Virus record (IMG/VR): IMGVR_UViG_3300023109_000088
Span: 1 to 29,239 of that record
Strand: one strand, 5' to 3'
Length of the DNA stretch: 29,239 bases
From: a virus
The notes beneath the pieces were generated by a model. It had not been told where the DNA came from and did no database searches. It saw only the letters and a program-made list of their open reading frames with translations. Shown here in pieces: positions 1,063 to 25,170 of this stretch (position 1 is the first letter of the stretch; each line of letters starts with the position of its first letter). The position numbers and the translations under genes were made by a program.

Positions 1063-4000
1063 TACTCACCTAGTCTTTCTAATATACCTAAACCTACTTC
1101 GGTGCTTCTGTCATAATTGTAATTCAAATAAGCACTACTTGATTGACCATCTTTTTGATTATAAATATTCAAGTTCCTAAAATCTATGCCTTCCCTGTCT
1201 CTCAATCTTTCTAAAGCACCTCTTGAGTCCGGCATACCCTGCAAGTAAACAAAATCTTCTGATTGATTTAAATAAGGTCTACGATCAAGTCTTCTTAATT
1301 GAGAATTAAATTTTCCATAGTCATGAATATCTTCTCCTAAAGAAGATACATACTTTAATTTAATGTCTTCTAGATCTACATCTTTGTGCCACCCCACCCA
1401 ATCAGCTGCAGGTAGTTCCATTTCCCCCTGAAGATCCATAGATTGGCTCATCATTTCCTGTTCATTTAGTTGAACTTGAGAACCTGCATATAAGGATTGT
1501 TGGCCACCAGTATCTATTCTATTCCAAACAGATTGGTATAGATGAGCCTGGTCTTCAGGCATTAATTCTAAAATCCGATTTCTTTCAGAAGCTTTAGCAT
1601 TGGCAAACGCATCAAAGTATTTTTTTTCACTATCAGGCAAACTCATGTAAATGCCTAACGCATCTCCTTGAGGATTGACTCCTACCCTAGTTTTACTAGC
1701 TAATTTTAAGTACCTTTGCTTGTCATTTTGATTTACAGCTTGTTTAGCTAAGTTAGTGTATTTAATAAACTGCAATTTATCAAAATGCTCGTTTACTTCT
1801 TCGCGTCGTTGTACATGCAATGGTTTACCTTGCCAACCAAGTGCATTCATTGCACTATACATCGAAGGTCTCAACCAGTCTCGAATTGGCGCATCCCAAA
1901 AAGCATGTGGTGTACCATACATTTGGTCAAACTCGTAAGTTTCCGTAATACCTCTAGTGTCACCTAAAAGTTTTTGTGCAGGTCTAAAACCTGCAGGTAT
2001 TAAATATTCTGCAGGCGCTACTGCTTTTCTTACAACTGTTTCTCCAGTTTTATAAACTTTTGAAGTCAGATTTGACAGCCCCGGAATTTTTATAGCATTT
2101 TCTTGAAAATCAAAGTCTTTTATAGATGATAAGCGTTGCTTATGCATTTCAAAAATTTGATCCATCATTTTGTTTTCGTAGTCAGTTGTAGCTTTTGCAG
2201 CTCGCTTTTCCATAAGTTCTTGACGCATCGTCATAGTTCTATGCGATTTAGGTGCTACATCAGACATAATCTTATATTTGTGTATTAGAGGGTACTCTTC
2301 TCCTGGAGTACCCTCTAGCTCAGGGTAAACAGCTTCATAACCTTTACCTGGCAGTCTTGTGTGACCCATAGCTACAGATCGATATGGATCCCCTCTCCTG
2401 AACCTATCTGGTAACCAAGAGGGCATCGAGTTCATGATTGGATTGTAACGTTCAATTTCTGCTCTTGGCCTAGGCAATAAGCGACGTAAACCTTCAGACA
2501 TGAACAAAGCACCACCGGTCTCCATATCCCAATAGTTCAAGATAGAACTATCCATTCTTCCTGAAGACTCCATTACCGGCATCATTGTTCCTAAAGTCTC
2601 TCTCCCTGTCATCATTTTTTGTATAACATTTTTGCCATACCCAGTGATACCTTCAATTTCTCGGCTTTGATATTGAATCTGCCCAAGCCTATGTAAAAGA
2701 TCGTTAGGAGTTAATGGTTTTCCTGGAGGCGTACCTCCCAAAGACGAAGGTGAGCCATATTCTTCTCTGTAAGCAAATTCAACTTCACCGCTTTCATTAA
2801 CTTGCATGAATTCATCTTCATGCATGAATTTTGGAGGCTTTATTAACGAGCCAATCGTTGCACCAAGCAAAGGCCCAATAACTGGTAAACTTTCTAGTGC
2901 AGGCGAGCTAATAGGGTAAGGTCTTTCGTAATAATTCTTATCTTCTAAATGGTAGGTAAAATTCTTAAGTACAAACTTGCTAATCGGATTGTAAACATCA
3001 TGCTCATCACCCCAAACAGATTTTTCATTCGAGCGCGTCATCATTGCGTGGTACTGGTGCGGCCTAAAATAGTTAGTTTCCATACCTGAATATGGCGTTC
3101 CACCACCTTCCCAGAAACGCCCTCTTTTTACCTCTACTAACTTTTCCCCTTTATAAGTCGCTTTTAAATCATCTGGATCATCCATCGATCCAAACACTCC
3201 GGTAGTTAGTAATTGATGTAAACCAAATCCTGCTGCAAACAAACCGCCTGCTCTTCTGAGAGCAGGCTTTCCTCCGTGTCGCATGGAAATTTCTTCATAC
3301 TCTTCACCTGCTAGTGAGGCTCCAAAAAAAGCATGGTAAGACTTTGCTCCAAACTTTTCTATTCGCTCAAATATCTTTCCAACAAAACCAGACCTTTCGT
3401 AACGTTCTCCAATTTCGTCTAAACGCCCCTCTAAAGATTTATGAAGTGGGTTTTTTTCTACGTACTCTTCATGAAAATCAATTCTACCTTCTACACGAGC
3501 ACCCATATAAAGCTTTCGCCCTAGCATTTTTGCTTCAGGCAACGACATATCGTATATTTCTGCTATTAAAGGCGAACTCTCTTGCATTAAATTGTGAAGA
3601 CTTTTTCTTCCTTGAATAGACATTTTTCCATAAGAAAGATTTCCTGTAGTTTTCTCAAAAACTTCTTTGTATTTTTGAGAAGTAAGAAGTTCTTCAAATT
3701 GATTATAAATTTCATAAGGCCCCTTCCTTACTGGGACATCTTCCATCGTTGTTCTTGGAGAAAACATATCGAAGATTTTTCTTTGAATGTGTTCAGATTC
3801 GCTTTTAGGAATCTGAACACTCCCGCCTTGTTTTGCAAAAAAACCGATTCTATTTCTTATTGTTTCGGGAAGCACCCTCTTATTATTCCTGTTTAAGTAA
3901 GCTCCAAAATTCCCATATGAAAGCCCCGCAAGAGCTACACCTACACCCGCACCTACAGTTGGGTCAGAGATGCCCGGGAACAACCCTTCTAGGGTTCTTC

Positions 4001-5366
4001 TGTAGCCAGACAGGCCTGTATACTTTCCTACATAAGATCTAGCAATGTCAGCATTGACTAGTGTGGTAGCTACTCCTTCTTTAATTCCTTGAGAGAACCC
4101 AGGCATCATTTGCAATGCAAATAATCCTGCTCCAACTCTTGTTGGCAAAGTCCTAGATAAATTTCCTTGAGCTTCGTTTAAAGATTTTCTTACTAAAGCA
4201 GCTCCTGCTACACTAACGCCTGCAGAGGCTACTAAATGCCCTGCAACCCCAAAGTTTCTTCTATAATGATCTATTGTTCTCAACCCTAAATAAGCTGCCC
4301 CAATGGCCGAAGCTTTTAATCCTAGATTCATGTATTGCTTATAAAAAGGTCCAGGTTTCGTGTAAGGATTCAATCCAATAGTTTTCAAACCACTTTCAAT
4401 TATTTGTCCTGCAATTGGAATTTGTTCAAAAGTAGATTTAACTACTTTATTAAATCGAGATGCTCCAAAAGTTAAATAAGCAAAGGGTACTGCAGTCCTA
4501 TTTTTAAATCCTTGAATTCCGCCAACATTACTTGGCCCCGTGCCAGACATATATCCAAACCTTGCTAACTTTGGACTAGCTCCTTCGATATCGTCTGCTC
4601 GAGCAATAAAGACTTTGTTTGGATCAATCCCTGCGTCTGTATTCTGAATTGCAGCATTAAATATAGGTTGAGTCTGTAACTCAACCCTCTCTGTTCGTAA
4701 AGCGTCTAAAGCTTCTGGTGGATGCCCCGATACAGGTAACGGAAGTATGCTATCACTTACTACGAAACGATCAATCACGTCTTGTACTGTATGCATTTTA
4801 CTTGTTTTAGGATCTACAACACCTTTTTCATCTGGAAGAAGTTCTCCACGTTCTACAAATTGCTCGAATATAAGTTTTCCAGAAAATCGTTCATCAAAGC
4901 CTTGTTCAAGTCTAAAGCGAAAATTACTAGTAGACATGCGCATTTCAAGGTTCTCATACGCAGCATCTCCGATAGTGGTTTTGAGATGTTTCAAACTATC
5001 TTTATTTTCAAAAAACTCTGATCCTAAAGTGTAATGGCCTACCATCTGCGACTCATCTATTACAGATCTTCCTATATCCATTCCTTTGTAGTGCGGAGAT
5101 GTAAAAAATGACATTAACTCTGGTATGCGAAAAGTATTTCCCAAACCCATTGGGGTTCTAGCTGCACGCTCCATTATTAATGAATGTGCATAATCGAAAA
5201 TAGTTTCCTGTGCATGTTTACTAACAGGACTTTTCATAGCGTAGTAACTTGCTCCAGCTAATGCTGCGTACGGAGCAAATGACATTCCTATCTGCATCAT
5301 TGGATGCATTTCCGGCTCCATTTGAGCTGCACTAAAATAGATACTATCTCCGCTTGACCCTATCAT
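1062..5366 (-). CDS. Giant tail-region virion protein; tape-measure or DNA-ejection candidate (1434 aa)
   Basis: This is the largest gene in the window and lies directly after two chaperone-like genes, where contractile-tailed phages usually encode the tape measure. The start ATG is preceded by AAAGGAG at good spacing. Hydrophobic Gly/Ala-rich segments lie near residues 23-43, 346-362, 373-392, 410-422 and 470-484, with another near 700-725. These would suit a protein held in the tail lumen that inserts into the host membrane during DNA entry. The rest is not classic tape-measure coiled coil: it is rich in Pro, Tyr, Arg and Met. A conspicuous block near residues 965-1045 contains NPIMNSMPSWLP and GDPYRS, and another near 1240-1300 contains KKYFDAFANA. 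I recall similar blocks in large unannotated phage virion proteins but cannot name a family. If it is the tape measure, its length would imply a long tail. Alternative: an ejected internal virion protein. Confidence 0.85.
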   Translation of the reverse strand: MIGSSGDSIYFSAAQMEPEMHPMMQIGMSFAPYAALAGASYYAMKSPVSKHAQETIFDYAHSLIMERAARTPMGLGNTFRIPELMSFFTSPHYKGMDIGRSVIDESQMVGHYTLGSEFFENKDSLKHLKTTIGDAAYENLEMRMSTSNFRFRLEQGFDERFSGKLIFEQFVERGELLPDEKGVVDPKTSKMHTVQDVIDRFVVSDSILPLPVSGHPPEALDALRTERVELQTQPIFNAAIQNTDAGIDPNKVFIARADDIEGASPKLARFGYMSGTGPSNVGGIQGFKNRTAVPFAYLTFGASRFNKVVKSTFEQIPIAGQIIESGLKTIGLNPYTKPGPFYKQYMNLGLKASAIGAAYLGLRTIDHYRRNFGVAGHLVASAGVSVAGAALVRKSLNEAQGNLSRTLPTRVGAGLFALQMMPGFSQGIKEGVATTLVNADIARSYVGKYTGLSGYRRTLEGLFPGISDPTVGAGVGVALAGLSYGNFGAYLNRNNKRVLPETIRNRIGFFAKQGGSVQIPKSESEHIQRKIFDMFSPRTTMEDVPVRKGPYEIYNQFEELLTSQKYKEVFEKTTGNLSYGKMSIQGRKSLHNLMQESSPLIAEIYDMSLPEAKMLGRKLYMGARVEGRIDFHEEYVEKNPLHKSLEGRLDEIGERYERSGFVGKIFERIEKFGAKSYHAFFGASLAGEEYEEISMRHGGKPALRRAGGLFAAGFGLHQLLTTGVFGSMDDPDDLKATYKGEKLVEVKRGRFWEGGGTPYSGMETNYFRPHQYHAMMTRSNEKSVWGDEHDVYNPISKFVLKNFTYHLEDKNYYERPYPISSPALESLPVIGPLLGATIGSLIKPPKFMHEDEFMQVNESGEVEFAYREEYGSPSSLGGTPPGKPLTPNDLLHRLGQIQYQSREIEGITGYGKNVIQKMMTGRETLGTMMPVMESSGRMDSSILNYWDMETGGALFMSEGLRRLLPRPRAEIERYNPIMNSMPSWLPDRFRRGDPYRSVAMGHTRLPGKGYEAVYPELEGTPGEEYPLIHKYKIMSDVAPKSHRTMTMRQELMEKRAAKATTDYENKMMDQIFEMHKQRLSSIKDFDFQENAIKIPGLSNLTSKVYKTGETVVRKAVAPAEYLIPAGFRPAQKLLGDTRGITETYEFDQMYGTPHAFWDAPIRDWLRPSMYSAMNALGWQGKPLHVQRREEVNEHFDKLQFIKYTNLAKQAVNQNDKQRYLKLASKTRVGVNPQGDALGIYMSLPDSEKKYFDAFANAKASERNRILELMPEDQAHLYQSVWNRIDTGGQQSLYAGSQVQLNEQEMMSQSMDLQGEMELPAADWVGWHKDVDLEDIKLKYVSSLGEDIHDYGKFNSQLRRLDRRPYLNQSEDFVYLQGMPDSRGALERLRDREGIDFRNLNIYNQKDGQSSSAYLNYNYDRSTEVGLGILERLGE
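2286..2317 (-). repeat. Perfect 12-bp stem-loop inside the giant tail gene
   Basis: TAGAGGGTACTC at 2286-2297 is the exact reverse complement of 2306-2317, with an 8-base loop. In the mRNA the loop reads CAGGAGAA, so it displays a Shine-Dalgarno-like AGGAG. It encodes an in-frame GTPGEE stretch. No T-run follows on either strand, so it is not a terminator. Confidence 0.85.
3789..3820 (-). repeat. Perfect 12-bp stem-loop inside the giant tail gene
   Basis: GTGTTCAGATTC at 3789-3800 pairs exactly with 3809-3820 across an 8-base loop. Stem length and loop size equal those of the hairpin at 2286-2317, but the sequence is unrelated. It lies within the coding frame and no T-run follows. A 9-bp perfect stem with a 4-base loop also occurs at 3246-3267 in the same gene. 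Confidence 0.85.
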
Positions 5367-5367
5367 T

Positions 5368-6057
5368 TTAACTCCTTTGTTTTGCTTTGTCTAAAGCCTC
5401 CAAATCTGCTTCTGAAAGCTTAACATTTTCTTGTTCTCGTTGATACAGCTCTCTAGCTTCTTCAACTTTCCAGTGTCCTAAAGCTTGCTCAAGCTTTTCA
5501 AAATTTTCACCTTGTACAATTGGTTTAATTTCTTCATCTTTTTTGCCGTTTAAATTGTCGTAAATTTCTTTTAAATTTAATTTAACAAAATTCGGGTTCA
5601 TTTTGCTTAAGATGTTTTCAGCAATAACAAAACATTTTATAAATTCTTTTTCTGTCAGATTATCTATATCAAACAAAGTGTATCTAGGTATTGCTGTAAC
5701 AATAACTGCGCGCATATGCTCGAAAATAGAATCGCTTGGATTCTTTTTGCGCTCATCAGCAATATCAAACAGCAATTGAGTTGGATCTTGAGATCCACTC
5801 AAGTGATAGATTAACTCACCTACTGAAATTAAATATCCCATAGGAGTATTAGCAGGAATGTAACTAGCATCATTTAAAAAACAGAGTTTAAAAACATCTT
5901 CGTAAATAAAAAAAGGAGGCATATTGCCTCCTGTTACAATTTTATTAAACAATCGGTACTCTCGCATAGAAAGTAACCTGAACTGAAATTCTATACCTGT
6001 TTCAAATTCAATACTATAAAGCTCTTTTCCTGACTTAAGAACTTGTATTAAATCCAT
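5368..6057 (-). CDS. Putative tail assembly chaperone (229 aa)
   Basis: The 229-residue protein sits between the tube-like genes and the giant tail gene, the usual place for tail assembly chaperones that bind the tape measure. It starts at an ATG preceded by ATGAGGTAAAA, which overlaps the stop of the previous gene. The N-terminus reads as a beta-rich domain (EFETGIEFQFRLLSMREYRL), followed by helices and a charged helical C-terminus ending KLSEADLEALDKAKQRS. No domain is securely recognised. Its middle (CFLNDASYIPANTP, then a helix VGELIYHLSG) is weakly reminiscent of the end of the preceding protein (CVLWPEANAEW, then DSLYQMILLNSG), which hints that the two are related or work as a pair. 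No classic programmed frameshift joins them. The coding sequence contains a terminator-like hairpin, annotated separately. Confidence 0.85.
   Translation of the reverse strand: MDLIQVLKSGKELYSIEFETGIEFQFRLLSMREYRLFNKIVTGGNMPPFFIYEDVFKLCFLNDASYIPANTPMGYLISVGELIYHLSGSQDPTQLLFDIADERKKNPSDSIFEHMRAVIVTAIPRYTLFDIDNLTEKEFIKCFVIAENILSKMNPNFVKLNLKEIYDNLNGKKDEEIKPIVQGENFEKLEQALGHWKVEEARELYQREQENVKLSEADLEALDKAKQRS
5904..5932 (-). terminator. Terminator-like hairpin plus T-run inside a coding sequence
   Basis: On the transcribed strand an 8-bp stem (AGGAGGCA/TGCCTCCT, 5914-5921 with 5925-5932, loop of three) runs straight into seven Ts, then ATTT. This is the layout of an intrinsic terminator, yet it lies about 40-50 codons into the 229-residue gene. 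The stem also contains AGGAGG four bases before an in-frame ATG (Met-46 of that protein), so an internal start is conceivable. Translating ribosomes would normally melt it, so any termination should depend on translation. Function is inferred from sequence only. Confidence 0.5.
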
Positions 6058-6064
6058 TTTTACC

Positions 6065-6874
6065 TCATAGCTGCGTAGTTAAAAGCATTGCTTGTTGTGG
6101 CGTAAGAAAACCAGAGTTGAGAAGAATCATTTGATAAAGCGAATCTACAACTCCTGCTTTACTATTTTCTAACCATTCTGCATTTGCTTCAGGCCAGAGT
6201 ACGCATCCAGAAACAACTTTTTCTTTAAGTTTTTCTTCGAGCTCTTCAGCATTTTCAGATTCTCGAAGTCGTTTCATAACTTCTTTAATCTTCTTCCATT
6301 CTCCTCGAGTTAAATGATGATAGATGTAGTTGTCATTATCTCCAAAGGACATAATGTGAATGCCGTTTTTTCCAAATTTTTCTTTCCAACCTTCAATCTC
6401 TTCAAAGCTTGGTGCGTTTTCATCAGAAGCAAGCATACCTAGAATTTGGCTACGCATCGTATCTTGAGAAGCATCCTTTGTAATTACCTCAGGCTCTCCA
6501 GAAGCTTCTTCATTTTTTTTCGGTTCTGCTTCTTCAAGAATTGAATCAAGTTCTATATCTAAACTCATTTTTGCTTTTTCCTCAATCATTTGCTCAATGA
6601 TACTTGGTTGTTGAAAGTCTTTAAGAGCATTAAGCTTTTTAACCCGCTCCTTCTTTAATCTAATCCTATTTTTTCTTTTTACAACAGGAATATTTGTTTT
6701 TTCTTTTACAATTACTTTATGCTCTACGGCAGGTATGAATGCACTTTCAGGTAAACTTCTAATAATATCATTACCACTAGGACAGCCCCTGCTGATTGCT
6801 TCTTTGGTTGGCTCTGTTAACGAGCCACCAAACAATACATACCTGTCGCCAATTAAGTTACCTTTATAAGACAT
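6065..6874 (-). CDS. Putative tail assembly chaperone or tail accessory protein (269 aa)
   Basis: The ATG overlaps the TAA of the preceding tube-like gene (TAATG) and has AGAGGG upstream. The N-terminal 30 residues are Gly-rich and may be extended. Residues about 55-80 are strongly basic (KRKNRIRLKKERVKK). Residues about 85-140 are helical and acidic. The C-terminal 120 residues form a compact-looking domain with a Trp-rich core (EGWKEKFGKNGIHIMSFGD, WPEANAEW) ending in a helix (PQQAMLLTTQL). I recognise no family. Gene order between tube and tape-measure candidate, and a loose resemblance of its C-terminus to the next protein, suggest one of a pair of tail assembly chaperones. An imperfect hairpin with one bulge lies at 6803-6832. 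Confidence 0.8.
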   Translation of the reverse strand: MSYKGNLIGDRYVLFGGSLTEPTKEAISRGCPSGNDIIRSLPESAFIPAVEHKVIVKEKTNIPVVKRKNRIRLKKERVKKLNALKDFQQPSIIEQMIEEKAKMSLDIELDSILEEAEPKKNEEASGEPEVITKDASQDTMRSQILGMLASDENAPSFEEIEGWKEKFGKNGIHIMSFGDNDNYIYHHLTRGEWKKIKEVMKRLRESENAEELEEKLKEKVVSGCVLWPEANAEWLENSKAGVVDSLYQMILLNSGFLTPQQAMLLTTQL

Positions 6875-7332
6875 TAAACACCCTCTAGATCTCTAGCAAT
6901 AAAACCAAACTCTTCAAGTATTACATTCTCACTAATTTGTATACTTTGTCCACGAGAAATCAAGAAACAGTTTCTTAAAGTCACATTTGTGTATGCTTTT
7001 GATTTTACTCCTGTTTCAATACTTTCAAGGCCATATCCAATCTCTATGTCAAATAAAGGCACATCGTTTAAAAATGAACTCGTATCTAATGTTTTTGTTA
7101 TCAGCTCATGCTGATTATAACCAGTATGAAAGTTAACAACAAAACTGCCTTGTATAATTCTTCTTCCAGGTAAAACAACATCATATAAATGAGACGCATA
7201 CCCGTATACAGGTTGGTTAGATTCATTAACAACAAAGGATATACCGGCGCATTCAACTAACTTTTCATCATCTAAAGTTACCTGTACGTTAGCACCTGAA
7301 AAATATTTGTAAGGGAATGATTTGACTGACAT
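6874..7332 (-). CDS. Tail tube-like protein, third paralogue (152 aa)
   Basis: This is the shortest of three consecutive proteins sharing the same pattern: an N-terminal Tyr-rich SGA/SGV motif (here YKYFSGANVQV), a beta-strand leading to a PVY or PIY motif (NQPVYGYASH), then a basic glycine turn and strand (PGRRIIQGSFVV). The tube protein shows RGKRGIAGTMI at the same place. The fold implied is the all-beta tail tube barrel. Likely roles for such a short paralogue are tube initiation on the baseplate, a tube cap, or a minor tube ring. It starts at ATG overlapping the TAA of the upstream paralogue. Paralogy is read directly from the sequence; the specific role is inference. Confidence 0.85.
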   Translation of the reverse strand: MSVKSFPYKYFSGANVQVTLDDEKLVECAGISFVVNESNQPVYGYASHLYDVVLPGRRIIQGSFVVNFHTGYNQHELITKTLDTSSFLNDVPLFDIEIGYGLESIETGVKSKAYTNVTLRNCFLISRGQSIQISENVILEEFGFIARDLEGV

Positions 7333-8276
7333 TAGCTACTCTTCCCTACTATTGATAACCTGGTTAAAATATCATTTAAAGCGCTGGGATCATTCAAAAG
7401 ATTAGTATCTTCATATGCTTCTTGACTCAATATTGTATCAAAAAAAGCCTCATTATAGTCCAAAAGCCTTCTAAGCACCTTTTCTTTATCTGCTTTGTTG
7501 CTTACGTTTTCTGGAGTTCTCTCTCCTTTACCAGTATTCAAAGCAGCTCCTATCTCATCTGCATGAATTGTAAAAACAATAGTTTTCTTTGTATCTGGCG
7601 ATACAAACGAAACTGTATATTCCGTATACAGTTTCGAAGCTGCTTTTACAGGTGTTGGGAGAGATGATGTTGCGGGTGTTGGGGGAGATGATGTTCGAAC
7701 ATCACCTCCCCTAACCTTTTCAAGCTCTAACTGATCTATATCAGTAGCTACAAACTGTAATACAACTTCAGATACAATATCATTTACAGAAGTAACAATA
7801 CCTTCTGATATGAATTCTAAATTGTTTATTCTTAAGCCCGCGCCTCTTGCGTCTACTTCATTCTTGTACATAAGCATTAAATCAAAAGGATGGATCATTC
7901 CTGCATTAAATACGGTTGTGTTATTAGGAGTAGATTCTCCTAAAGAAAACCCTTTTTGAGTCACATCATCGTCTAAATGTTTATGAAGTTGACCAAAATT
8001 TCTCATTACAACCCCTAATGGGTGCTCACTCTTTACAATAAAAATGAGTGAACCGGCAATACTTCTGATATTGCCGGTAAACCCAACAGGACTTGCGTGA
8101 CCAAGCCGACGTACAGGAGCTTTTGCCTCATACATCGAAACTGAAACGGTAGCTATATTGTCTAAATGAATTATTGATTGCGCGCTTCCAGTTCGCCGAT
8201 CACCCGTATATGTACTTATTCTTCGAACAGCATATACATCGCAATCAGCGCCTGAGTAACTGTAGTTATATTTCAT
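7332..8276 (-). CDS. Tail tube-like protein, second paralogue with C-terminal extension (314 aa)
   Basis: The first 190 residues or so follow the tube pattern: YNYSYSGADCDV at the N-terminus, EAKAPVRRLGHASP, then TGNIRSIAGSLI, and later HPFDLMLMYKNE, matching LPFDVAIVAVNE in the tube protein. A Pro/Ser/Thr linker with an 8-residue duplication (about residues 194-209) joins this to an extra domain of about 100 residues that begins with beta strands (YTEYTVSF) and ends in helices (SALNDILTRL). The extension makes it a candidate for a tube ring carrying an outward or lumenal domain, or a tube-baseplate adaptor. The start is supported by TGAGGCTAAT before the ATG. It lies just after a terminator, so it is probably made at a lower level than the tube protein. 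Confidence 0.85.
   Translation of the reverse strand: MKYNYSYSGADCDVYAVRRISTYTGDRRTGSAQSIIHLDNIATVSVSMYEAKAPVRRLGHASPVGFTGNIRSIAGSLIFIVKSEHPLGVVMRNFGQLHKHLDDDVTQKGFSLGESTPNNTTVFNAGMIHPFDLMLMYKNEVDARGAGLRINNLEFISEGIVTSVNDIVSEVVLQFVATDIDQLELEKVRGGDVRTSSPPTPATSSLPTPVKAASKLYTEYTVSFVSPDTKKTIVFTIHADEIGAALNTGKGERTPENVSNKADKEKVLRRLLDYNEAFFDTILSQEAYEDTNLLNDPSALNDILTRLSIVGKSS
7588..7711 (-). repeat. Cluster of three hairpins and a 24-bp tandem repeat at the linker of the second tube paralogue
   Basis: Going up the plus strand there is an 8-bp stem with a 4-base loop at 7588-7607, and directly next to it a perfect 12-bp stem with a 5-base loop at 7608-7636 (CGAAACTGTATA). Then comes a 24-bp near-perfect tandem duplication (7651-7674 and 7675-7698) encoding the repeated linker SSPPTPAT/SSLPTPVK. 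Finally a 30-base quasi-palindrome spans 7682-7711 around TTCGAA; its only mismatch is a G-U pair in the mRNA. All lie in frame at the domain junction. Confidence 0.85.
8052..8078 (-). repeat. Perfect 10-bp stem-loop in the second tube paralogue
   Basis: ACCGGCAATA at 8052-8061 pairs with 8069-8078 across a 7-base loop. It lies within the tube-like domain, over the codons around the conserved glycine turn. No T-run follows. Confidence 0.8.
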
Positions 8277-8280
8277 ATTA

Positions 8281-8320
8281 GCCTCAAATAAAGAAGGGGA
8301 ACTTTTTGGGGTTCCCCTTC
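8281..8320 (-). terminator. Intrinsic terminator after the tail tube gene
   Basis: In the 78-base gap after the tube stop codon, a perfect 10-bp stem (GAAGGGGAAC, 8293-8302 with 8311-8320, loop of eight) is followed on the transcribed strand by TTTATTT. It sits about 35 bases after the stop and immediately before the Shine-Dalgarno of the next gene. It probably ends most transcripts carrying sheath and tube, with partial read-through into the later tail genes. No promoter is evident after it. Confidence 0.8.
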
Positions 8321-8354
8321 ATACTACAGTTTAGATTGTTTAAAATCTAGAGGC

Positions 8355-9035
8355 TTATTTTTTCAGTTGCATTATTCCAGGTGCTACAGCATCACCTCGA
8401 TCATCAACACGATCAGCATTACTTTGACTAGTCCAAGGAAGAATAGTACGGCAAACATAAGTCATCTGATTCTCTACAACGATATCATCAATAGAGAAGC
8501 CGGAACCCTCATTAAGGATCTCACAACCATACAAGCGCATAGTAGCCTTTTGACCATACTCATTAACTGCAACGATAGCTACGTCAAACGGCAAAATTTG
8601 ATCTACATAAAAAGGGCGCGTTCGTTGGTAATCGTTCGTCATGCTACCAGTATTACCACTACCAGTCGCGCCTACTTGCAGTAGTCCAGCTCCACTAGTA
8701 TACGCTCCATCGCTAGCAGTTAAATCAGTAAGCGCTTGTGTAGGATCAGCAAAGATCTCACTCTTATCAAGTAGAGGGCTTGGGTGCTGATCAAGACCAG
8801 GATGCTCAAGGAAGTGCTTATCGAGCATAAGAGAAATCATAGTGCCAGCAATACCACGCTTTCCACGAGAGAAAGAGATAGGATCTACTGAGCCCATGAC
8901 ATAGATAGGTGCCTTTTCGCGCTGGATAGCATATGAGATAGCCTGCATAGACCCCATCTCTTTGCCACCAACAACAACTTTAATATCTACTCCAGAATAA
9001 CTAGAGTAAGTCTTTGAGTAATCTAATGAACTCAT
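8355..9035 (-). CDS. Tail tube protein (226 aa)
   Basis: This is the best candidate for the main tail tube subunit. It directly follows the sheath gene (22-base gap), has a strong Shine-Dalgarno (AAAGGA), and is followed by a terminator, as expected for a very abundant product. The N-terminus YSSYSGVDIKVVVGGKEMG leads to REKAPIYVMGSVDPISFSRG and KRGIAGTMIS. This pattern is typical of tube proteins of large contractile-tailed phages (recalled from family knowledge). Later strands include LPFDVAIVAVNE and ATMRLYGCEILNEG. The coding sequence is visibly richer in G and C than its neighbours, as are the sheath and capsid genes, which suggests codon adaptation for high expression. Subunits stack as hexameric rings inside the sheath. 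Confidence 0.85.
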   Translation of the reverse strand: MSSLDYSKTYSSYSGVDIKVVVGGKEMGSMQAISYAIQREKAPIYVMGSVDPISFSRGKRGIAGTMISLMLDKHFLEHPGLDQHPSPLLDKSEIFADPTQALTDLTASDGAYTSGAGLLQVGATGSGNTGSMTNDYQRTRPFYVDQILPFDVAIVAVNEYGQKATMRLYGCEILNEGSGFSIDDIVVENQMTYVCRTILPWTSQSNADRVDDRGDAVAPGIMQLKK

Positions 9036-11602: not shown

Positions 11603-12319
11603 TTAATTAAGGTTAATTATGTTATTTTCAATAAAAAATGTTCTTAAAGTAGAATTTGATATTGCTTCGAATTCTCTAAATCTTAAGAAAAAATGTAACG
11701 GTCTACAAAAAAGTCTTTGATTTCCAACAGTCTGGTAAGTATCTGCTCGCCGCTCTTTCCAAAAAAAACGTTCAGCTCCGTTTTCTACAAAAACAAATGC
11801 AGTATTTATAAACAACTTTTCAAGCCACAAGGCTCTTCTATTTGCTAATTTGTTACTAACTGCCCAGCAATTGAACTCAATTATATGATCTACGGGTCTT
11901 GTACTCACTGTAATTGTTTTATTTGCTTCGCAAGGATCAGAATACTCGTAATAGTATCGTGACTTTCTTTGAGGTCTTGAGTCACCTTTTTTGCTCATCA
12001 TTCCTGGTTTTCTTTCTATTACTTTGAAAGTAATAGTTTCTTTACCAAGGTCATTTAACTCTAAAGGCGGATACTCTTCTATTAGTTTAACAAGTTTTGA
12101 GTCTTTTATGCCTTTATCTTTTTGAGCAGACTCAATAACTTTATTTGCTAAATTAAAAAAAGTCTCTAAATCTAACGGCTTTTCATTTGGAAGAAAACAG
12201 CTTAAATCAAATCTAAAAGGGTCTAAGTTCTCAATATGAACTACCCTTTCATCAACTACTTCATCATTATTATCAAGAAATTCTATAATTACTTCTTTTG
12301 CGCTTTTTTTAGCATTCAT
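11603..12319 (-). CDS. Putative tail terminator / neck protein (238 aa)
   Basis: This is the last neck gene before the sheath, the usual place for the tail terminator or tail completion protein that caps the tail and docks it to the head. It overlaps the previous gene (ATGA) and has AAGGA upstream. The N-terminal 120 residues look like an acidic alpha/beta domain (EVIIEFLDNNDEVVDE, DPFRFDLSCFLPNEKPLD). The C-terminal half, from SRYYYEYSDP through DHIIEFNCWAVSNKLANRRA and a helix to FFWKERRADTYQTVGNQRLF, resembles the strand-helix-strand pattern of tail terminators. The identification is by gene order plus this loose pattern. A symmetrical sequence (10 bp with a single central base) lies at 12016-12036. 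Confidence 0.8.
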   Translation of the reverse strand: MNAKKSAKEVIIEFLDNNDEVVDERVVHIENLDPFRFDLSCFLPNEKPLDLETFFNLANKVIESAQKDKGIKDSKLVKLIEEYPPLELNDLGKETITFKVIERKPGMMSKKGDSRPQRKSRYYYEYSDPCEANKTITVSTRPVDHIIEFNCWAVSNKLANRRALWLEKLFINTAFVFVENGAERFFWKERRADTYQTVGNQRLFCRPLHFFLRFREFEAISNSTLRTFFIENNIINLN

Positions 12320-15020: not shown

Positions 15021-15066
15021 AAAACGAAAAAGGGGGTAGGAGTCAATTACGACTCCTACCCCCTTT
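15021..15066 (-). terminator. Strong intrinsic terminator after the major capsid gene
   Basis: A perfect 16-bp stem (AAAGGGGGTAGGAGTC, 15029-15044 with 15051-15066, loop of six) is followed on the transcribed strand by TTTTTCGTTTT, whose first Ts are the end of the stem. It lies about 40 bases after the capsid stop codon. A second small hairpin precedes it at 15079-15094 (6 bp TTGCAC/GTGCAA, 4-base loop). Together they should protect the capsid mRNA 3' end and lower read-through into the neck genes. No convincing promoter lies between it and the next gene. Confidence 0.92.
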
Positions 15067-17865: not shown

Positions 17866-17883
17866 TTTAATTAGCTAATTAAA
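17866..17883. repeat. 18-bp perfect AT palindrome at the stop codon and gap before the accessory gene
   Basis: TTTAATTAGCTAATTAAA reads the same on both strands. It overlaps the TAA stop of the protease gene and fills the upstream half of the gap before the Shine-Dalgarno of the next gene. A shorter palindrome (CCTTAATTAAGG, 11601-11612) has the same position before the sheath gene. Either could be a protein-binding site or merely AT-rich sequence. Confidence 0.6.
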
Positions 17884-20617
17884 TATTGTTAGGATGGAAT
17901 CCACGAGGTAAGTACTGGATCTTGCTCATCAAGTAGTCTTCTGCTGCAAGCTCTCCATGATCTTTTTTAAGCAAGCTATAAGTGTCTACTACTTTTTGCT
18001 CAAAATTACCAAGATTACTAGCTGGAGCTTTAGTCATTTTTTGCTCAAGGTCGTCTTTACTTACATGTTCTGAGGGGTTTTCTACTTTTACGTCAATTAG
18101 TAATACTTCGTCTTTTGTATCATTTTCAACCGATTTTGTAATTTTTTCAACAGAATCGTCATTTTTACTAATTATAGATTCGATTACAACAGACAATTTC
18201 TCTTCAAGAGAATTGTATTTTGACAGCAAATCCGAGTAGCGAGACTCTAATTCAAGATAGTCCTTGTCTTTATCGCAACTCATTTTTCCAGCTTTAGAGT
18301 TCACACAAGCCATAATCTTTTGTTTTGTCTCTCCAGAAACTTTTGCTCGACCAATTAGCTTGCGCGCTGCACTTACATGCGCGCAATCTGGTACAGGGAA
18401 TGACCTGTTTGGTCCACAAAAAGCAGATTCAGGAAGCTCTTTTCGCTGCTCGCTTGTAAGCGCAGCATCTTCTTGCATCATAGAATAAGAGAGTCCCATG
18501 TCTAGTAACTCCCAATCAATTTCTTCGCTATCTTGATCAAGAGTTTCTGCCTCTTCAAAAGACTCGTCATGCTCTTCTTGCTCTTCTACAGAAGGCTCTT
18601 CTGCTTCTTCCAAAAGATCTTCGTCTTCAGGCGCTACAATTTCTTCGACAGAATCTTCAACAACAATTTCTTCTGTTTCTACGATTTGCTCTTCTTCGTT
18701 CATAATAAAGTCCTTTGCTTTCTTTTCCTTATTGGATGATTTTCTTGAATGTCCTGCTGGAAGTAGATCATTGTCTTGAACATACTTTGGATTGCTAGGC
18801 CTACCGCTACGTACAAGCTTTAAAAAAGCATTAACTCTTGCTACGCCCCAACCAGATCTAGACATTCCTGGCCTGTGGGTGGAAGAAAAAGCACCTGCTC
18901 CTCTACGATAAACCGCTTTAAGCATCCCAAGGCTTACACGCTTACCTTTTTCTTTTCCATGCTTCTTGTTATGCTTACGCACTTTTTCTTTTAAAGACCC
19001 AAGTACAGAACCAACAGAAATTCCACTACTGGCTTTAGAAGCGGATCCTTTTTTATTCTTCTTAGAACCTTTAATTCGCTCTGAAGGTTTTGCAGGAGTT
19101 TTAGCTCCTTTACCCTTAGGGGAGGAGCGATAAGCGTCTTGATCAAAATCTGCTATCATAGTCTCTTCATTTTCATTATCGTTAGCAGCACTTGTACGTA
19201 TAGCCCAGTCGATCCCTGAAGTGCCTCCCCAACCAAGCCAAGCTACATATCCTCGATCTTTCCATGGAGTAGACTTGAACTCAGGAGCTACTGCTGCATT
19301 CTTACGATGCCTATTGAAAGCTGCCATTCTTTTGACAGTAGAAAGGCCTATCTCTGATTTACTAGCAAGTTGTCTTGCTCTAGCCCAGCCTACAGGAGTC
19401 ATTCCCTTAACTTCTGAGCCTTTCTCTTTTTTCCAATTTAAAACTTTTTGAGCGTTCCCTTTTGCTCCTGAAGGAACTTTAAAAGTTTTTTCGTCTAGTA
19501 GTTCTTCTACTAGCTCTTCAAAACCTAAATATTCCTCTGTAAAAAGTTCACTATCCATTGTTCGCATTTGACCGGAGTATTTTACTTTAATAACCATCGT
19601 CTCCCCATCACCTTTTTGAGTGATGTAAGTTTCTCCAGCTTGGTGTAACTCAGTCATTGCCTTGTCAGAAATTATCATTTCGTGATCATATTTCTGTTTT
19701 ACTTTTTCTTTGGAGCTTTCTTTTTCTTCTTTGCCTTTTTCTTCGTAGGCATCGATTTGCTCGGTTGCTTGTATCCGCTTTGTTTCATTTGAATCTCCTA
19801 GTAGGTAAATGGAGTCTGTAAGAATGATTTCTTTCATTTGAACTTTATCTTGTTGCGTGAATGCGCTCTCTTCAGAGTCGCGCATTTCCATATGTACTAG
19901 CTGGGAAAGGTCATCAGCAGGCGTATTTACCACTGATCCTTCCATGACAATGAAGTCTCCTGTAATAAATACACATGTTTCACCATCATATTCTTCCCCG
20001 TGACGGTGTTCGCACATTCCATCTTTAGCCCAATCGCTTTCACAGATAGAACAAACGTGCCTATCAGTAGTAGAACCAGCAGAAAAGGTAAAATAACGCC
20101 CATCCATAAACTTTTTGATAGCTTCTTCATCCGTAATGTTAGCTTGTACACGCATTCTTCCCAAACCAGGCCATTGCTTATCTTTAATAAGATTCAAGCT
20201 TTTTAATGTATGGTATATTTTACCAGGATCGTCTCCATTGAAAGCATTATGAACATCTAGGATCTTTTGAGTAGACTCTAAATAACTACTTGCCTCATCA
20301 TACAGATCTTGCCACTCCCCTCCAGTAAAACGACCAATCGGCTCGCTTTTTTGATCATGATTCTTTAGTATTGGCTTCGGATATGGATTTGTTAAAGAAT
20401 CGATTCCTCTTTGCTGACCTTTCGTAGAATAAATTCTATTATTTATTCTACGTCCAGAATGGGAAAGATCGTAAGTAATTACTAAACCTTTGCCCCCTGA
20501 ATAAGCTGACATTAACATTTTGTCAATCGTTTGAATTTTTTCAACTCTATCAAGAGTTAAAATTCTTTGGTCAGGGTTTACCTGGATATAATCATTATAC
20601 TTGATTATTTTGCTCAT
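17879..20617 (-). CDS. Prohead maturation protease fused to several accessory domains and a scaffold-like C-terminus (912 aa)
   Basis: Residues 40-240 form the protease. GLVITYDLSHSGRRINNRIY is followed by ILKNHDQ with the candidate catalytic His-87 and by YFTFSAGS with the candidate catalytic Ser-179. A Cys/His cluster (C189, C192, C202, H204, possibly C215) probably binds zinc, and VVNTPADDLSQL closes the domain. Residues about 377-475 hold a helical module (VPSGAKGNAQKVLNW, GWARARQLASKSEIGLSTVK, WLGWGG). Residues about 530-623 hold a third module (VYRRGAGAFSSTHRPG, GWGVARVNAFLKLVRSG, DNDLLPAGH) resembling a domain of unknown function in other phage head proteins. An acidic linker spans 639-705. 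Residues about 719-781 hold a Cys-bearing module (LPESAFCGPNRSFPVPDC). A coiled coil (786-820) and a 50-residue tail complete it and may serve as scaffold. The protease acts inside the prohead, cutting scaffold and capsid N-termini. The Shine-Dalgarno is weak (TAGGGC). Confidence 0.88.
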   Translation of the reverse strand: MSKIIKYNDYIQVNPDQRILTLDRVEKIQTIDKMLMSAYSGGKGLVITYDLSHSGRRINNRIYSTKGQQRGIDSLTNPYPKPILKNHDQKSEPIGRFTGGEWQDLYDEASSYLESTQKILDVHNAFNGDDPGKIYHTLKSLNLIKDKQWPGLGRMRVQANITDEEAIKKFMDGRYFTFSAGSTTDRHVCSICESDWAKDGMCEHRHGEEYDGETCVFITGDFIVMEGSVVNTPADDLSQLVHMEMRDSEESAFTQQDKVQMKEIILTDSIYLLGDSNETKRIQATEQIDAYEEKGKEEKESSKEKVKQKYDHEMIISDKAMTELHQAGETYITQKGDGETMVIKVKYSGQMRTMDSELFTEEYLGFEELVEELLDEKTFKVPSGAKGNAQKVLNWKKEKGSEVKGMTPVGWARARQLASKSEIGLSTVKRMAAFNRHRKNAAVAPEFKSTPWKDRGYVAWLGWGGTSGIDWAIRTSAANDNENEETMIADFDQDAYRSSPKGKGAKTPAKPSERIKGSKKNKKGSASKASSGISVGSVLGSLKEKVRKHNKKHGKEKGKRVSLGMLKAVYRRGAGAFSSTHRPGMSRSGWGVARVNAFLKLVRSGRPSNPKYVQDNDLLPAGHSRKSSNKEKKAKDFIMNEEEQIVETEEIVVEDSVEEIVAPEDEDLLEEAEEPSVEEQEEHDESFEEAETLDQDSEEIDWELLDMGLSYSMMQEDAALTSEQRKELPESAFCGPNRSFPVPDCAHVSAARKLIGRAKVSGETKQKIMACVNSKAGKMSCDKDKDYLELESRYSDLLSKYNSLEEKLSVVIESIISKNDDSVEKITKSVENDTKDEVLLIDVKVENPSEHVSKDDLEQKMTKAPASNLGNFEQKVVDTYSLLKKDHGELAAEDYLMSKIQYLPRGFHPNNI
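20423..20452 (-). repeat. Perfect 11-bp stem-loop in the protease gene
   Basis: CGTAGAATAAA at 20423-20433 pairs with 20442-20452 across an 8-base loop. It covers the codons of the conserved RRINNRIYST stretch. Weaker stems occur in the same gene at 18360-18386 (8 bp of mostly G and C, loop of 11) and 18193-18216 (10 bp with one bulge). Confidence 0.8.
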
Positions 20618-20671
20618 GTTTTTGCCCTAAAAACTGTATTTAATATAATAAACAATAATAGTAGTATTTAA
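20618..20671 (-). other. AT-rich gap before the protease gene; possible promoter
   Basis: Apart from the two terminator regions, this 54-base gap is the longest between genes in the window. It is almost entirely A and T on the transcribed strand (it includes TATTATATTAAATACAG) and separates the portal from the head-assembly genes. It could hold a phage late promoter, but I see no pair of elements matching a known consensus. Confidence 0.3.
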
Positions 20672-22297
20672 TTAATGCTTTTCAAGCATTTCCAATATTT
20701 CATTAATGTTTTCTTTCATTTTAATTTCTTCAACAATCCTTACAGTGTCTTTACTAAATTTAGGGGCAGAGCGTATTCCATGCTGATTACTAGGACGCGC
20801 TCTACTAGCTGATTGGTTTTCAGCTCCTTTAAAAAGATTACTCCCTTTAGGATTCTTTTTTTCACTAACTTTAGCTGTTTCTTCTTTTTTCAACCCCACT
20901 TCATTTATATTTGAATTTGGAGATTCTTTTAATGCATTTGAAGCAGCTGTAAAAGCTCCCATCGCTTTTACAAGCGCAAGAGGCTCTTGATAGAGTTTAT
21001 AATATGACTCTTCTCTATTTTCTACAGGTCTTTCTCCTAAACGCTTTCTAGCTTCTGTTTCAGAAATCAAATTATTGATCCATAGTTGAATGGTTTGATT
21101 TTCTTCTTTTGATTTCTCTTCTTTATCTACAGATCCAAATTTAATCTCTACTTTTAAATCATCGTTTAAGAGTGCTTCTTCGAAACCTCCTTCGAGTAAC
21201 AGTTCATTGATAACGTAAGTCTCCACAAACATTTTAACGGTGCTTTGCAGAGCCTCTACATCTTGAATAGCAATCTTTGATAAAGTGTTTGCTGTACTCC
21301 TGTTAGCAGTATCACCTTCACCCATATCAATTGGAGAAACTCCTAACCCTGCAAAGACTCTTTTTTTAAAGTAATCTATGTAATTATCTATAGATAATGC
21401 TTTACCTTCAGACCCTATAGCCTCAATCTTATGCCTGTGATCAGAAACGAACACTCCTCCAGAAGGCATGTATTCTATGGTATTTCTTACGAGATCTGAT
21501 TCTTTCACTCCATCTGGACCATAACGTTCAGGATGATTGTCATTCCCTACTTTATAATGGAAAAGAGGATGTAGGTTAGCATCTATCATATTTTCGACGT
21601 TTTCTTCTAAACGTCGAAGCAAAGAGATATCCTCAAGTACGGGAAGTAGCTCTGGGGTACCCATTGTAAACCCAGGTTTTTTATTTGTGTAGAAGTGAAT
21701 AACATCTTGAGGAGAGAACTCTTTTGTATCTCCTGTATTCTGCACTTCTTGCATTATTTTTTTAATCTCTCCATTCCTTTTGACTTTAAACCACAACGTT
21801 TCAAAAGGCAAAAGGAAATAACCTGCTACCGGATCAATCTCTTTTCCGTTAACAACTCGTACTTTTCCAGTAGAAGCTTCTCTGCTTCTTACTTTGACCC
21901 ATGCGCAATTAGAATATCTAAACAAATCATGAGCTAAACCTTTTATAAGTAAATCAAAAGGCATGCCTGAAGTAAGTTCGATTTCTTTTATTCGGCGCTT
22001 AATGTATGTTACAGTTTCAGCGTCTTTACCAACTATCTCCCACCCAGCTAATAAAAATCTGTGAACCTTTTTTTGTATTGCTTTAAAGACATAAGAGTCT
22101 ACGTCTTGAGCAATTTGAAGTTCCGTTAGATCGTACTCTGGTTTAAACCAGTTTCCTCGGTGCCGATCTCCGTAGGTCATTGACCTGTTATTAACTTTTT
22201 TAATTTTTACCCCTGACAATCGCTCGACTTCTAATGGCTTATTCATGTCTTTTTGATTGAGCAAGCTCACTGCTTCTAATAAAACCTTGGTATCCAT
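20672..22297 (-). CDS. Portal protein (541 aa)
   Basis: The portal is a 12-subunit ring at one head vertex through which DNA is packaged and ejected. The sequence follows portal proteins of tailed phages: DSYVFKAIQKKVHRFLLAGWEIVG at the N-terminus, then VAGYFLLPFETLWFKVKRNG, DVIHFYTNKKPGFTMGTPEL, a helical stem and crown region, and VFAGLGVSPIDMGEGDTANR near residues 320-340, which is highly characteristic. The C-terminal 100 residues are Lys/Ser/Asn rich and end in a charged helix (KENINEILEMLEKH). The ATG overlaps the TAA of the upstream gene and has AGGAG at eight-base spacing. Unusually, five genes separate it from the terminase gene. The coding sequence holds a 14-base palindrome at 22138-22151. 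Confidence 0.92.
   Translation of the reverse strand: MDTKVLLEAVSLLNQKDMNKPLEVERLSGVKIKKVNNRSMTYGDRHRGNWFKPEYDLTELQIAQDVDSYVFKAIQKKVHRFLLAGWEIVGKDAETVTYIKRRIKEIELTSGMPFDLLIKGLAHDLFRYSNCAWVKVRSREASTGKVRVVNGKEIDPVAGYFLLPFETLWFKVKRNGEIKKIMQEVQNTGDTKEFSPQDVIHFYTNKKPGFTMGTPELLPVLEDISLLRRLEENVENMIDANLHPLFHYKVGNDNHPERYGPDGVKESDLVRNTIEYMPSGGVFVSDHRHKIEAIGSEGKALSIDNYIDYFKKRVFAGLGVSPIDMGEGDTANRSTANTLSKIAIQDVEALQSTVKMFVETYVINELLLEGGFEEALLNDDLKVEIKFGSVDKEEKSKEENQTIQLWINNLISETEARKRLGERPVENREESYYKLYQEPLALVKAMGAFTAASNALKESPNSNINEVGLKKEETAKVSEKKNPKGSNLFKGAENQSASRARPSNQHGIRSAPKFSKDTVRIVEEIKMKENINEILEMLEKH
20948..20972 (-). repeat. Perfect 9-bp stem-loop in the portal gene
   Basis: TGTAAAAGC at 20948-20956 pairs with 20964-20972 across a 7-base loop, within the codons for the C-terminal helix containing LVKAMGAFTAAS. 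Confidence 0.75.
21593..21618 (-). repeat. Perfect 10-bp stem-loop in the portal gene
   Basis: TTCGACGTTT at 21593-21602 pairs with 21609-21618 across a 6-base loop, within the codons for LRRLEENVEN. Confidence 0.8.
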
Positions 22298-23997
22298 TAT
22301 TTTGCTCCTAACGAGTTAGCAAGATGGTCATATACTAAATCTAAACTGTTTTGATTACTATTAATGTCAATAGTAATCTCGCCACAATTATTAGGTCGCA
22401 ATCTACTTTTGTACTCAGATGTTTTACTTTTTACTAATGCAAAAGTTTCACCAGATTCATCTTTTACAAAATCAAGTTCAATATCCGAGTCACTAGACTC
22501 AACTACTTGTTTAAGCAAGTTGTTCTTACTATTATCATCAAAGTCTTTACAAATTTCTAAACCAGATTTGCTTAGTTTAAATAAAAGTTTTATCAATCTA
22601 CCTAAATTAGCTAAAACGCGTATTTCTGATATTAACTTTGTACTAACATATAAAGGCTCAATTATAACTCTTTGAAAAGCACGCAGAGTATATACTAATC
22701 TGCTGAAGAAGTCATTCACAATCACTCGAGCCCTTCCTAAGCGATCAATTATAATATCAATAAATCCTCCTCCAAAAGGATTTTTCTGAAGAAATGTAAT
22801 TGGTTCTACATTGTTATTTAGATTTGTGCTTGTATAGACTCCAGCTTTGTATCCGGGAAGGTACTCTTCGCTATCTATTTTAGTTCCATATTTTTTAGAT
22901 TCTTTGTTGTTTTTTTTGCTTGGAGCTACAGGTTCTACACTTGGGTTTTTGTTTTGTTTTTGAACAGCTTTTTGATTCTTATATTTAAGATTTTGTTTTA
23001 CTTTTTCAGAAATTGCTATTTGATTTTTAATATCTTCTCTTTCTGGCACACCAAAAGTATCACCAACTCTTAATGCTTGAGCTTTTATACTACTAGCTGC
23101 TTGATCTGCTGCTACAAGTACTGATTTCATTGTTTTGAAAGAGTTAATTAGGCAATCAAAGATAGGAATTGTTATTCCCTTTAACATTTCTATAACCTTC
23201 GAAAGCACTTTTAAAACAGGCATCAGTAAGCTTCCTACCAATCCAGTCCATGAAACTCCTACTTCAAACAACTTTGATTTTATGTCGCTAATAATTATAG
23301 GAAAACTAGCTAAGATAAGAGGGTAGCTGCTTAAACATAGCCCGTTACTGTTCTCAAGCATTTCCTTTATTTTACATATATCTGCAATTTGTTTTGTATT
23401 GTCTAAGGATAGCTTAATATCTGTAAGCAATCCCTTCAAGCTTTCTAAGAACTTTTTAATTTCCCAGCTAACTTCAAATGGAGGCAATCCTCCATTGATA
23501 TCTGCTGGTCTTCTGCAGTTCAAGCACCCTTCAAGATCGTAATTTTCGTTATCTTCAAATATATCTTTAATAAAATCGTTTATATTATCAGAAGCACTAT
23601 TAAATTTTTTGTCTAAAAAATAATATCCCTTCCTATAATTTTTTACTGCTTTTGAATCATTAACATCTTTATTAATGGTTCTTAATTTATTTTCTACTTT
23701 TTTTGTAGACCCTTCTGGATCTATTTTAAAAACGCACTTTTCATAAAATGCGCTTTCTTTTATAGGTGCTTCCTTAATATCAGGCTTAACTTTTAACTTA
23801 GCTTCTTTTTCCTGATAAAGAACATCAACGTTACTACTTATATCGACTGCACTTAATATCATATCCATTTTGTGAAGATTGCTAAACTGTAAAATATCTA
23901 AAGGAACATCTTCATGCAAAGTAATGTTTAAAATAGTTTCTTTTTCAAACTTTTCAGTTAAAGCCAAAACGGCTTGTAGTAACTTTCCTTCATTCAT
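22297..23997 (-). CDS. Unrecognised structural protein between terminase and portal (566 aa)
   Basis: No family is recognised. The first 110 residues look alpha/beta (NITLHEDVPLDILQFSNLHK). Residues about 155-240 contain cysteines (GCLNCRRPADINGG, ADICKIKEML, NGLCLSSYPL) followed by a hydrophobic region (LILASFPIIISDI, GVSWTGLVGSLLMPVLKVLS, GITIPIFDCLINSF) that could be buried helices or a membrane-active segment. A Lys/Asn-rich linker (about 320-375) leads to a second half with FGGGFIDIIIDRLGRARVIV and several amphipathic helices, and the C-terminus is beta-like (GEITIDINSNQNSLDLVYDH). It is coupled to both neighbours by one-base overlaps, and its Shine-Dalgarno is weak. A minor head, portal-vertex or ejected protein is possible. 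Confidence 0.82.
   Translation of the reverse strand: MNEGKLLQAVLALTEKFEKETILNITLHEDVPLDILQFSNLHKMDMILSAVDISSNVDVLYQEKEAKLKVKPDIKEAPIKESAFYEKCVFKIDPEGSTKKVENKLRTINKDVNDSKAVKNYRKGYYFLDKKFNSASDNINDFIKDIFEDNENYDLEGCLNCRRPADINGGLPPFEVSWEIKKFLESLKGLLTDIKLSLDNTKQIADICKIKEMLENSNGLCLSSYPLILASFPIIISDIKSKLFEVGVSWTGLVGSLLMPVLKVLSKVIEMLKGITIPIFDCLINSFKTMKSVLVAADQAASSIKAQALRVGDTFGVPEREDIKNQIAISEKVKQNLKYKNQKAVQKQNKNPSVEPVAPSKKNNKESKKYGTKIDSEEYLPGYKAGVYTSTNLNNNVEPITFLQKNPFGGGFIDIIIDRLGRARVIVNDFFSRLVYTLRAFQRVIIEPLYVSTKLISEIRVLANLGRLIKLLFKLSKSGLEICKDFDDNSKNNLLKQVVESSDSDIELDFVKDESGETFALVKSKTSEYKSRLRPNNCGEITIDINSNQNSLDLVYDHLANSLGAK
22353..22378 (-). repeat. Perfect 10-bp stem-loop near the 3' end of the 566-residue gene
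   Basis: GATTACTATT at 22353-22362 pairs with 22369-22378 across a 6-base loop, about 55-80 bases before the stop codon. A second perfect stem in this gene lies at 23477-23496 (8 bp, 4-base loop). Confidence 0.8.
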
Positions 23998-24775: not shown

Positions 24776-24777
24776 AA

Positions 24778-25170
24778 CTATATCTCTGTTGCGGTTAGTT
24801 TAATATTAAAGTCATCTGCGCTTGTGTAAACCTTAGACTCTTCCCCTGCTGGGCAAAAGAGTCTAAATTGAAGCGTATAAACCGTATCCGTATCTTCAAT
24901 ATTACCCACGTTAACAGTTGGTTCAAGCTCATTCCATTCTTGTAAAGATACTACATCATTTCCAAGATGAGCCTTTGACTCCCATTTTTTATTTTTTAGT
25001 TGAACACTTATCTCTAACTTCACCTCTACATTTTCGTATAGTTTAGCTGGATCATCATTCTTCAAATAAACAGTAATTAGATCTGCTTCACCAGTAAAGC
25101 CGTTGTGCGTAGTAGATATATTTTGAGCTTCTGAAGTACAGTCACGGTCTTCATAAAAAACTAAACTCAT
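24778..25170 (-). CDS. Small beta-sandwich structural protein (130 aa)
   Basis: This short protein looks entirely beta-stranded: GEADLITVYLKNDDPAKLYE, VEVKLEISVQLKNKKWESKA, TVYTLQFRLFCPAGEESKVY, DDFNIKLTATEI. The alternating pattern suggests an Ig-like or jelly-roll virion component such as a head or neck decoration. The ATG overlaps the previous stop (ATGA) and is preceded by AGGGGGA. It ends in TAG, the only amber stop in the window, so amber is not reassigned. No named family recognised. Confidence 0.8.
   Translation of the reverse strand: MSLVFYEDRDCTSEAQNISTTHNGFTGEADLITVYLKNDDPAKLYENVEVKLEISVQLKNKKWESKAHLGNDVVSLQEWNELEPTVNVGNIEDTDTVYTLQFRLFCPAGEESKVYTSADDFNIKLTATEI
24833..24866 (-). 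repeat. 10-bp stem-loop in the beta-sandwich gene, stem shared with the Ig-like gene
   Basis: TTAGACTCTT at 24833-24842 pairs with 24857-24866 across a 14-base loop that itself can fold (CCC/GGG). The core AGACTCTT...AAGAGTCT recurs as an 8-bp stem with a 13-base loop at 14444-14472 in the Ig-like gene. This is the only stem sequence I found used twice. Confidence 0.75.

Follow-up and report, generated by a model that had tools for sequence, protein, structure and literature searches.

The genes of the viral DNA analyzed here contain perfect stem-loops far in excess of chance, and these stems are, with a probability that we place at roughly two in three, the footprints of a mutation process acting on DNA, i.e., templated mutation, and not functional RNA elements. 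The window (the whole stretch of DNA under analysis) spans the full length of an IMG/VR virus record (29,239 bases), a single metagenome contig that probably represents a genome fragment, with a G+C content of 38.2% and all of its genes on the minus strand. These genes make up the structural module of a large phage with a contractile tail, including a terminase (called via Pfam Terminase_6N) and the portal, major capsid, and sheath proteins (called via PHROGs). The order of its genes is like that of Acinetobacter phage ME3, a distant relative whose capsid protein shares 34% identity with that of the window. The DNA search against named phages returned zero matches to the window, and the protein search disclosed only distant relatives, such as ME3. 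Using five window proteins as queries, about 150 loci were gathered, many of them overlapping, 77 of which were distinct and longer than 5 kb; no relative was confirmed with the sheath protein as query, and DNA polymerase B, searched for in eight relatives, gave no match.

The count of perfect stems located inside genes and having loops of 3–15 bases was compared with that of synonymous-codon shuffles. The window genes harbor 39–40 stems of at least 8 bp (7.1 in the shuffles), 13 stems of at least 10 bp (mean 0.39, maximum 4 in 1,500 shuffles), and seven of at least 12 bp (mean 0.03, maximum 2 in 1,500 shuffles); shuffling the order of the codons led to the same expectation. At 10 bp and above, the excess is therefore about 30-fold over chance. 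A first-pass annotation, made by reading the sequence, had proposed this excess, together with a rough chance estimate and codon-preserving shuffles as a check; the excess is real, since the shuffles fall far below the observed counts instead of giving similar ones, and the rough estimate proved to be about right. The excess is restricted to loops shorter than about 15–20 bases: inverted repeats with loops of 3–11 bases number 17, with 2.0 expected. Mirror repeats show no excess, being near expectation overall (6 vs. 2.7 in the bins with loops of 3–11). Among the 68 stems of the enriched contigs, loop sizes peak at 6 nt (20 stems).

All twelve stems listed in the first-pass annotation are present where it placed them, although the one at 20423–20452 is a perfect 12 bp stem and not one of 10–11 bp as had been reported. 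The gene 1062–5366 carries two perfect 12 bp stems, both with a loop of 8 (2286–2317 and 3789–3820), and a perfect 10 bp stem with a loop of 10 (3652–3681), which was absent from that list. In the gene 7332–8276, a perfect 12 bp stem with a loop of 5 is located at 7608–7636, the aligned positions being unpaired in relatives, and a perfect 10 bp stem with a loop of 7, found in the window only, at 8052–8078. The tail-sheath gene (9058–11592) contains a perfect 10 bp stem with a loop of 6, also restricted to the window (10018–10043), and, 106 nt into the gene, a perfect 17 bp stem with a loop of 11 (11442–11486), 11 of whose 17 pairs are kept in the nearest relative. The perfect 13 bp stem with a loop of 5 at 12617–12647 (gene 12316–12852) is accompanied by an Ile-to-Leu change at a position occupied by Ile in 12/12 distinct relatives compared, and that at 17152–17192 (13 bp, perfect, loop of 15; gene 16472–17845) keeps 7 of its 13 pairs in the nearest relative. 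The stem at 20423–20452 (loop of 6), lying 165 nt into the gene 17879–20617, is the one window stem present in several divergent relatives. The perfect 10 bp stem with a loop of 6 embedded in the portal gene 20672–22297 (21593–21618) recurs in the relative L041 with one loop change, and the two remaining perfect 10 bp stems, at 22353–22378 (loop of 6; gene 22297–23997) and 24833–24866 (loop of 14; gene 24778–25170), occur in the window only. Outside this intragenic set, two intergenic terminator-like hairpins with T-rich tails lie on the minus strand, one with a 16 bp stem after the capsid gene (15029–15066) and the other with a 10 bp stem after the gene 8355–9035 (8293–8320). A further terminator-like hairpin, followed on the coding strand by a run of seven T, is found at 5914–5932, within the gene 5368–6057 and about 125 nt past its start.

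The distribution of the excess among lineages is patchy. In seven cultured reference phages subjected to the same processing, the stems of at least 10 bp range from 0 to 1.4 per 10 kb of genes; the corresponding values are 4.5 for the window and 8.6 for the uncultured relative L135 (expected counts in this comparison, 0.5 and 1.6, respectively). The excess is strong in the window, L135, L113, L125, and L041, and weak or absent in most of the other relatives. Four loci (L114, L115, L116, and L118) resembled further enriched cases, but their stems may be ordinary terminators, since many have 4-base loops and are clustered in one part of the contig, some of them being intergenic. L114 and L116 were not used, and L115 and L118 were excluded from the analyses of loops, positions, and flanks. 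In the 147 kb contig of L118, hairpins rich in G+C are densely packed within the first 40 kb of G003, both inside and between the called reading frames, and are few beyond that point. As a separate observation, stems of two distant relatives (L101, 6689–6716, and L125, 8304–8329) share the same loop, AAGCAA, and have similar arms that are one complementary pair change apart; this shared stem possibly reflects a predisposed protein motif.

Not all genes take part in the excess. The major capsid gene of the window (15107–16444, minus strand) has none, and the distinct major-capsid sequences (29 rows including the window, for a total of 36.4 kb) contain 0 stems of at least 9 bp, where 13.1 would be expected at the average rate; shorter stems are at chance level, so that in the capsid gene the excess is absent and hairpins are not pushed below chance. 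For the tube gene, two stems were observed and 3.3 expected, a lack that is not significant; the earlier remark that both the tube and capsid genes are devoid of long stems holds, for the latter, far beyond the window. Among the genes compared, that of the major capsid ranks first both in conservation (mean amino-acid identity of 82%) and in third-position G+C, on the basis of which we infer that purifying selection probably purges templated changes from it. Apart from these counts, the same gene includes a near-perfect palindrome of 26 nt at 15747–15772, 92% identical to its own reverse complement.

A different explanation is that the stems are selected in the mRNA of the late genes, as RNase sites, as protection from RNases, or as signals for ribosome pausing. 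The large size of the excess, the loops of 6–8 nt, which suit RNA hairpins, and the frequency of complementary double changes, higher than in controls, would be in agreement with it, and the exception represented by the capsid gene could reflect regulation. However, selection on mRNA folding should tolerate G-U pairs over A-C mismatches, and this preference is absent. In 13 pooled enriched contigs, whose "other enriched" group includes L115 and L118 with stems that may partly be terminators, perfect stems of at least 10 bp number 80 against 4.45 expected (18-fold), those with one G-U 6 against 2.9 (2.1-fold), those with one A-C 12 against 2.6 (4.6-fold), and those with another single mismatch 21 against 8.9 (2.4-fold). 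The window and L135 alone exhibit the same pattern, with perfect stems 22- and 19-fold in excess, respectively, G-U stems numbering 1 and 0, and A-C stems 3 and 1. An excess of perfect stems without any G-U preference is what would be expected if stems are formed perfect and then decay at random. Mismatches flanking the stems likewise show no significant G-U bias over shuffles.

The other properties of the stems also fit poorly with a role in mRNA. For 41 of the 68 stems of the enriched contigs (60%), folding is more stable in the sense RNA than in the antisense, a share equal to that of the background (60%). No U-tracts follow these stems (mean of 2.0 T in 8 bases, background 2.4; none with six or more), and a loose terminator pattern is matched by both intergenic hairpins and, among the listed stems, only by that at 7608–7636. 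The stems are spread along genes without significant unevenness (KS P = 0.08), their pairing phase is even, and the search of the window against Rfam 15 gave nothing at the gathering score. The moderately enriched L175 and L169 have stems in excess also in other parts of their longer contigs than the one first fetched. Stem G+C is near that of the background (0.398 vs. 0.384; 0.289 vs. 0.316; 0.446 vs. 0.409) and above that of chance stems, as copying predicts. Lastly, few sites are shared among relatives and the stems do not change more slowly than other bases; as regards a conserved structured RNA element, complementary double changes exceed controls, but there is no G-U excess and most sites are unshared. 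On the whole, we consider selection in mRNA unlikely, and mRNA stability, processing, and translation pacing, which the first-pass annotation had listed among the possible causes, are not borne out by the lack of G-U preference, of sense/antisense asymmetry, and of U-tracts, nor by the little conservation observed.

The turnover of the stems was followed in codon alignments of relatives (up to 45 rows). Stems of at least 9 bp occur, in one row or another, at 132 sites, only 11 of which are common to two or more distinct sequences, and the positions aligned with the window stems are mostly unpaired in relatives. Stem bases change at the same rate as control bases; in the two most enriched lineages they appear to change slightly faster (232 vs. 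205), a weak difference that is not significant (P about 0.05). When both sides of a pair are altered, the result is complementary in 25/48 cases (52%), compared with 27–34% at control positions. The arm asymmetry of the changes had a differing outcome between divergence classes, and stem codons do not depart from conserved residues significantly more often than others (4/30 vs. 9.8% in the window, 2/52 vs. 5% in the L011 lineage). Conservation of pairing, whose absence the first-pass annotation would have taken as a refutation, is lacking for most of the stems, with a few sites recurring, such as that at 20423–20452.

These recurring sites might suggest a mixed origin, in which most stems are mutational and a minority is kept for a function. 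A few stems do recur in divergent relatives beyond the expectation from amino acids and codon use (27 rows vs. 1.8, at sites picked for having stems). The stem at 20423–20452 is present in 5/28 distinct rows, with 0.24 expected, and the MDNIT/NNVVQ stem, at the start of the gene 16472–17845 in relatives, is common to L005 and the L011 lineage. However, the recurring sites sit in conserved protein motifs that already supply much of the pairing, so that the recurrence can also be due to common ancestry or to templated perfection having taken place more than once at predisposed sites, and the sites were chosen because the stems were there; a mixed origin appears a little less probable than selection in mRNA. 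The gene hosting the stem at 20423–20452 (17879–20617) encodes a conserved protein of 912 residues with a weak DUF5824 match; among relatives, its 31 stem sites (9 bp or longer) exceed those of every other gene, a number close to that predicted from its length.

Selection at the DNA level, for cruciforms, packaging or replication signals, or operator-like palindromes, would account for a palindromic structure that is perfect and strand-symmetric, but the arms have no sequence in common (no shared 7-mer, and fewer shared 5- and 6-mers than random) and few sites are fixed among relatives, which makes it very unlikely. The same absence of a common motif agrees with the earlier remark that the stems do not form one repeat family (no sequence common to the stem copies, as in dispersed REP or MITE elements, was found) and speaks against the binding sites for a phage protein that had also been envisaged. 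Finally, foldback artefacts occur in sequencing libraries and the window comes from a single metagenome contig, but an assembly or library artefact is hardly credible, given that the reading frames are intact, that three data sets have contigs with identical stems (L010, L011, and L012, from possibly non-independent samples), that the stem at 21593–21618 recurs in L041, and that L010, which is rich in stems (8.3 per 10 kb), and L003, which is poor (1.4), come from the same metagenome (3300010149), which argues against a sample artefact.

Templated mutation, in the form of template-switch repair perfecting quasi-palindromes, had been one of the causes put forward in the first-pass annotation, and it is the one favored by the perfection of the stems, their strand symmetry, their short loops, and their rapid turnover. 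According to this mechanism, which we infer from those properties, a short inverted repeat, imperfect and with only a few bases in its loop, would occur by chance in a gene; the growing strand would fold back or jump, and one arm would template the other (quasipalindrome correction, template switching, or sequence-directed mutagenesis), so that a single event might produce a perfect stem, later broken by ordinary point mutations. In some phage lineages this might happen often enough for genes to hold many perfect stems at any given time (under a simple model, about 1–1.5% of accepted changes), and purifying selection would clear them from the most constrained one, that of the major capsid. It can also be tentatively proposed, although we hold it less probable than not, that some lineages of these large tailed phages use replication machinery or hosts unusually prone to template switching, with at least 1% of fixed changes being templated and their genes being continually remade into perfect hairpins, and that this trait has been gained or lost among close relatives.

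A simulation in which sequences underwent point mutation and local copying of reverse complements, with amino-acid changes weakly accepted and no benefit assigned to stems, was run at several templating rates, the nucleation rule, the tract length, and the acceptance being free parameters. At the lower rates, the stem counts were not raised. With 1.2–1.5% of accepted changes templated, the simulated stems of at least 8, 10, and 12 bp numbered 28–40, 10–16, and 3.5–6, respectively (observed 39–40, 13, and 7), and the helices with one G-U, A-C, or other mismatch numbered about 1, 1, and 4.5, respectively (observed 1, 3, and 4). At 66–74% identity, about 0–0.9 of 12–16 simulated stems were shared (less than one in eleven), few being shared in the real data as well, and 35–48% of double changes were complementary (observed 52%); stems were predicted to change 1.1–1.3 times faster than average. 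Since it was the stem count that determined which of the scanned templating rates was chosen, the fit of the remaining measures represents a plausibility check and not a proof. The peak of loops at 6 nt is not explained by the model. The search for template-switch clusters in pairs at 88–99% identity found that 0/578 multi-base clusters match a nearby reverse complement, and no inverted loops (spacer inversions) were detected among 4,527 stems; both tests are weak, because the close pairs come mostly from lineages without a strong excess. As no individual switching event was found, the stems work like the footprint of template switching without being a proven member of that class.

It is known that quasipalindromes can be mutated by template switching, as first observed in phage T4 and yeast, the examples including T4 rIIB, yeast CYC1, and E. 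coli thyA (PMC7202029). In those systems, as would be the case here, imperfect inverted repeats are perfected by templated synthesis; the difference is that single events were observed there, whereas the present phages display only a standing footprint. Template switching has also been described as creating and maintaining RNA hairpins, thereby mimicking compensatory evolution (PMC8794818), and as altering coding genes and their proteins in yeast (PMC8604942). The likeness lies in the fact that one event gives a perfect stem resembling the product of compensatory evolution, coding genes included, but in those studies the events were reconstructed on trees, and none has been reconstructed in the present phages. 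Short inverted repeats are in excess in bacterial coding sequences (Ladoukakis and Eyre-Walker, cited in PMC4060949), and both sequence-directed mutagenesis and selection for mRNA stability have been offered as causes (PMC4060949). As described there, the bacterial case is similar in having short perfect repeats above expectation inside genes, ascribed to template switching, and concerns a small but significant excess of repeats of 6–9 bp; that of the present phages is about 30-fold at 10 bp and above, and strongly lineage-dependent. The mitochondria of Nematomorpha likewise harbor functional protein genes with numerous perfect inverted repeats, their coding palindromes reaching 284 bp (PMC6649704), compared with 10–17 bp here. 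No report of such a hairpin excess in phages was found in the open-access literature, which is not proof of its absence; the excess represents a strong example, in phages, of an already known kind of phenomenon.

Perfect intragenic stems with compensatory changes are usually taken as a sign of RNA function, and templated mutation alone can yield the pattern seen here, double changes included. This calls for caution when covariation is used to discover RNAs in phages, and the comparison between G-U and A-C mismatches allows RNA function to be told from templated mutation. If the proposed origin is true, these phage lineages would represent natural high-rate systems in which the controls on template switching might be found.

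Two other kinds of repetition can be seen in the window. Three adjacent genes (6874–7332, 7332–8276, and 8355–9035) all match phrog_9206, labelled as major head protein, which suggests that the trio spanning 6874–9035 consists of tandem paralogues, perhaps tail-tube-like. The gene 25167–26771 includes, at 26531–26578, a perfect tandem duplication made up of two copies of CTGATTGCAGTCTTCTTTGTTGGG, whose unit of 24 nt corresponds to a whole number of codons.
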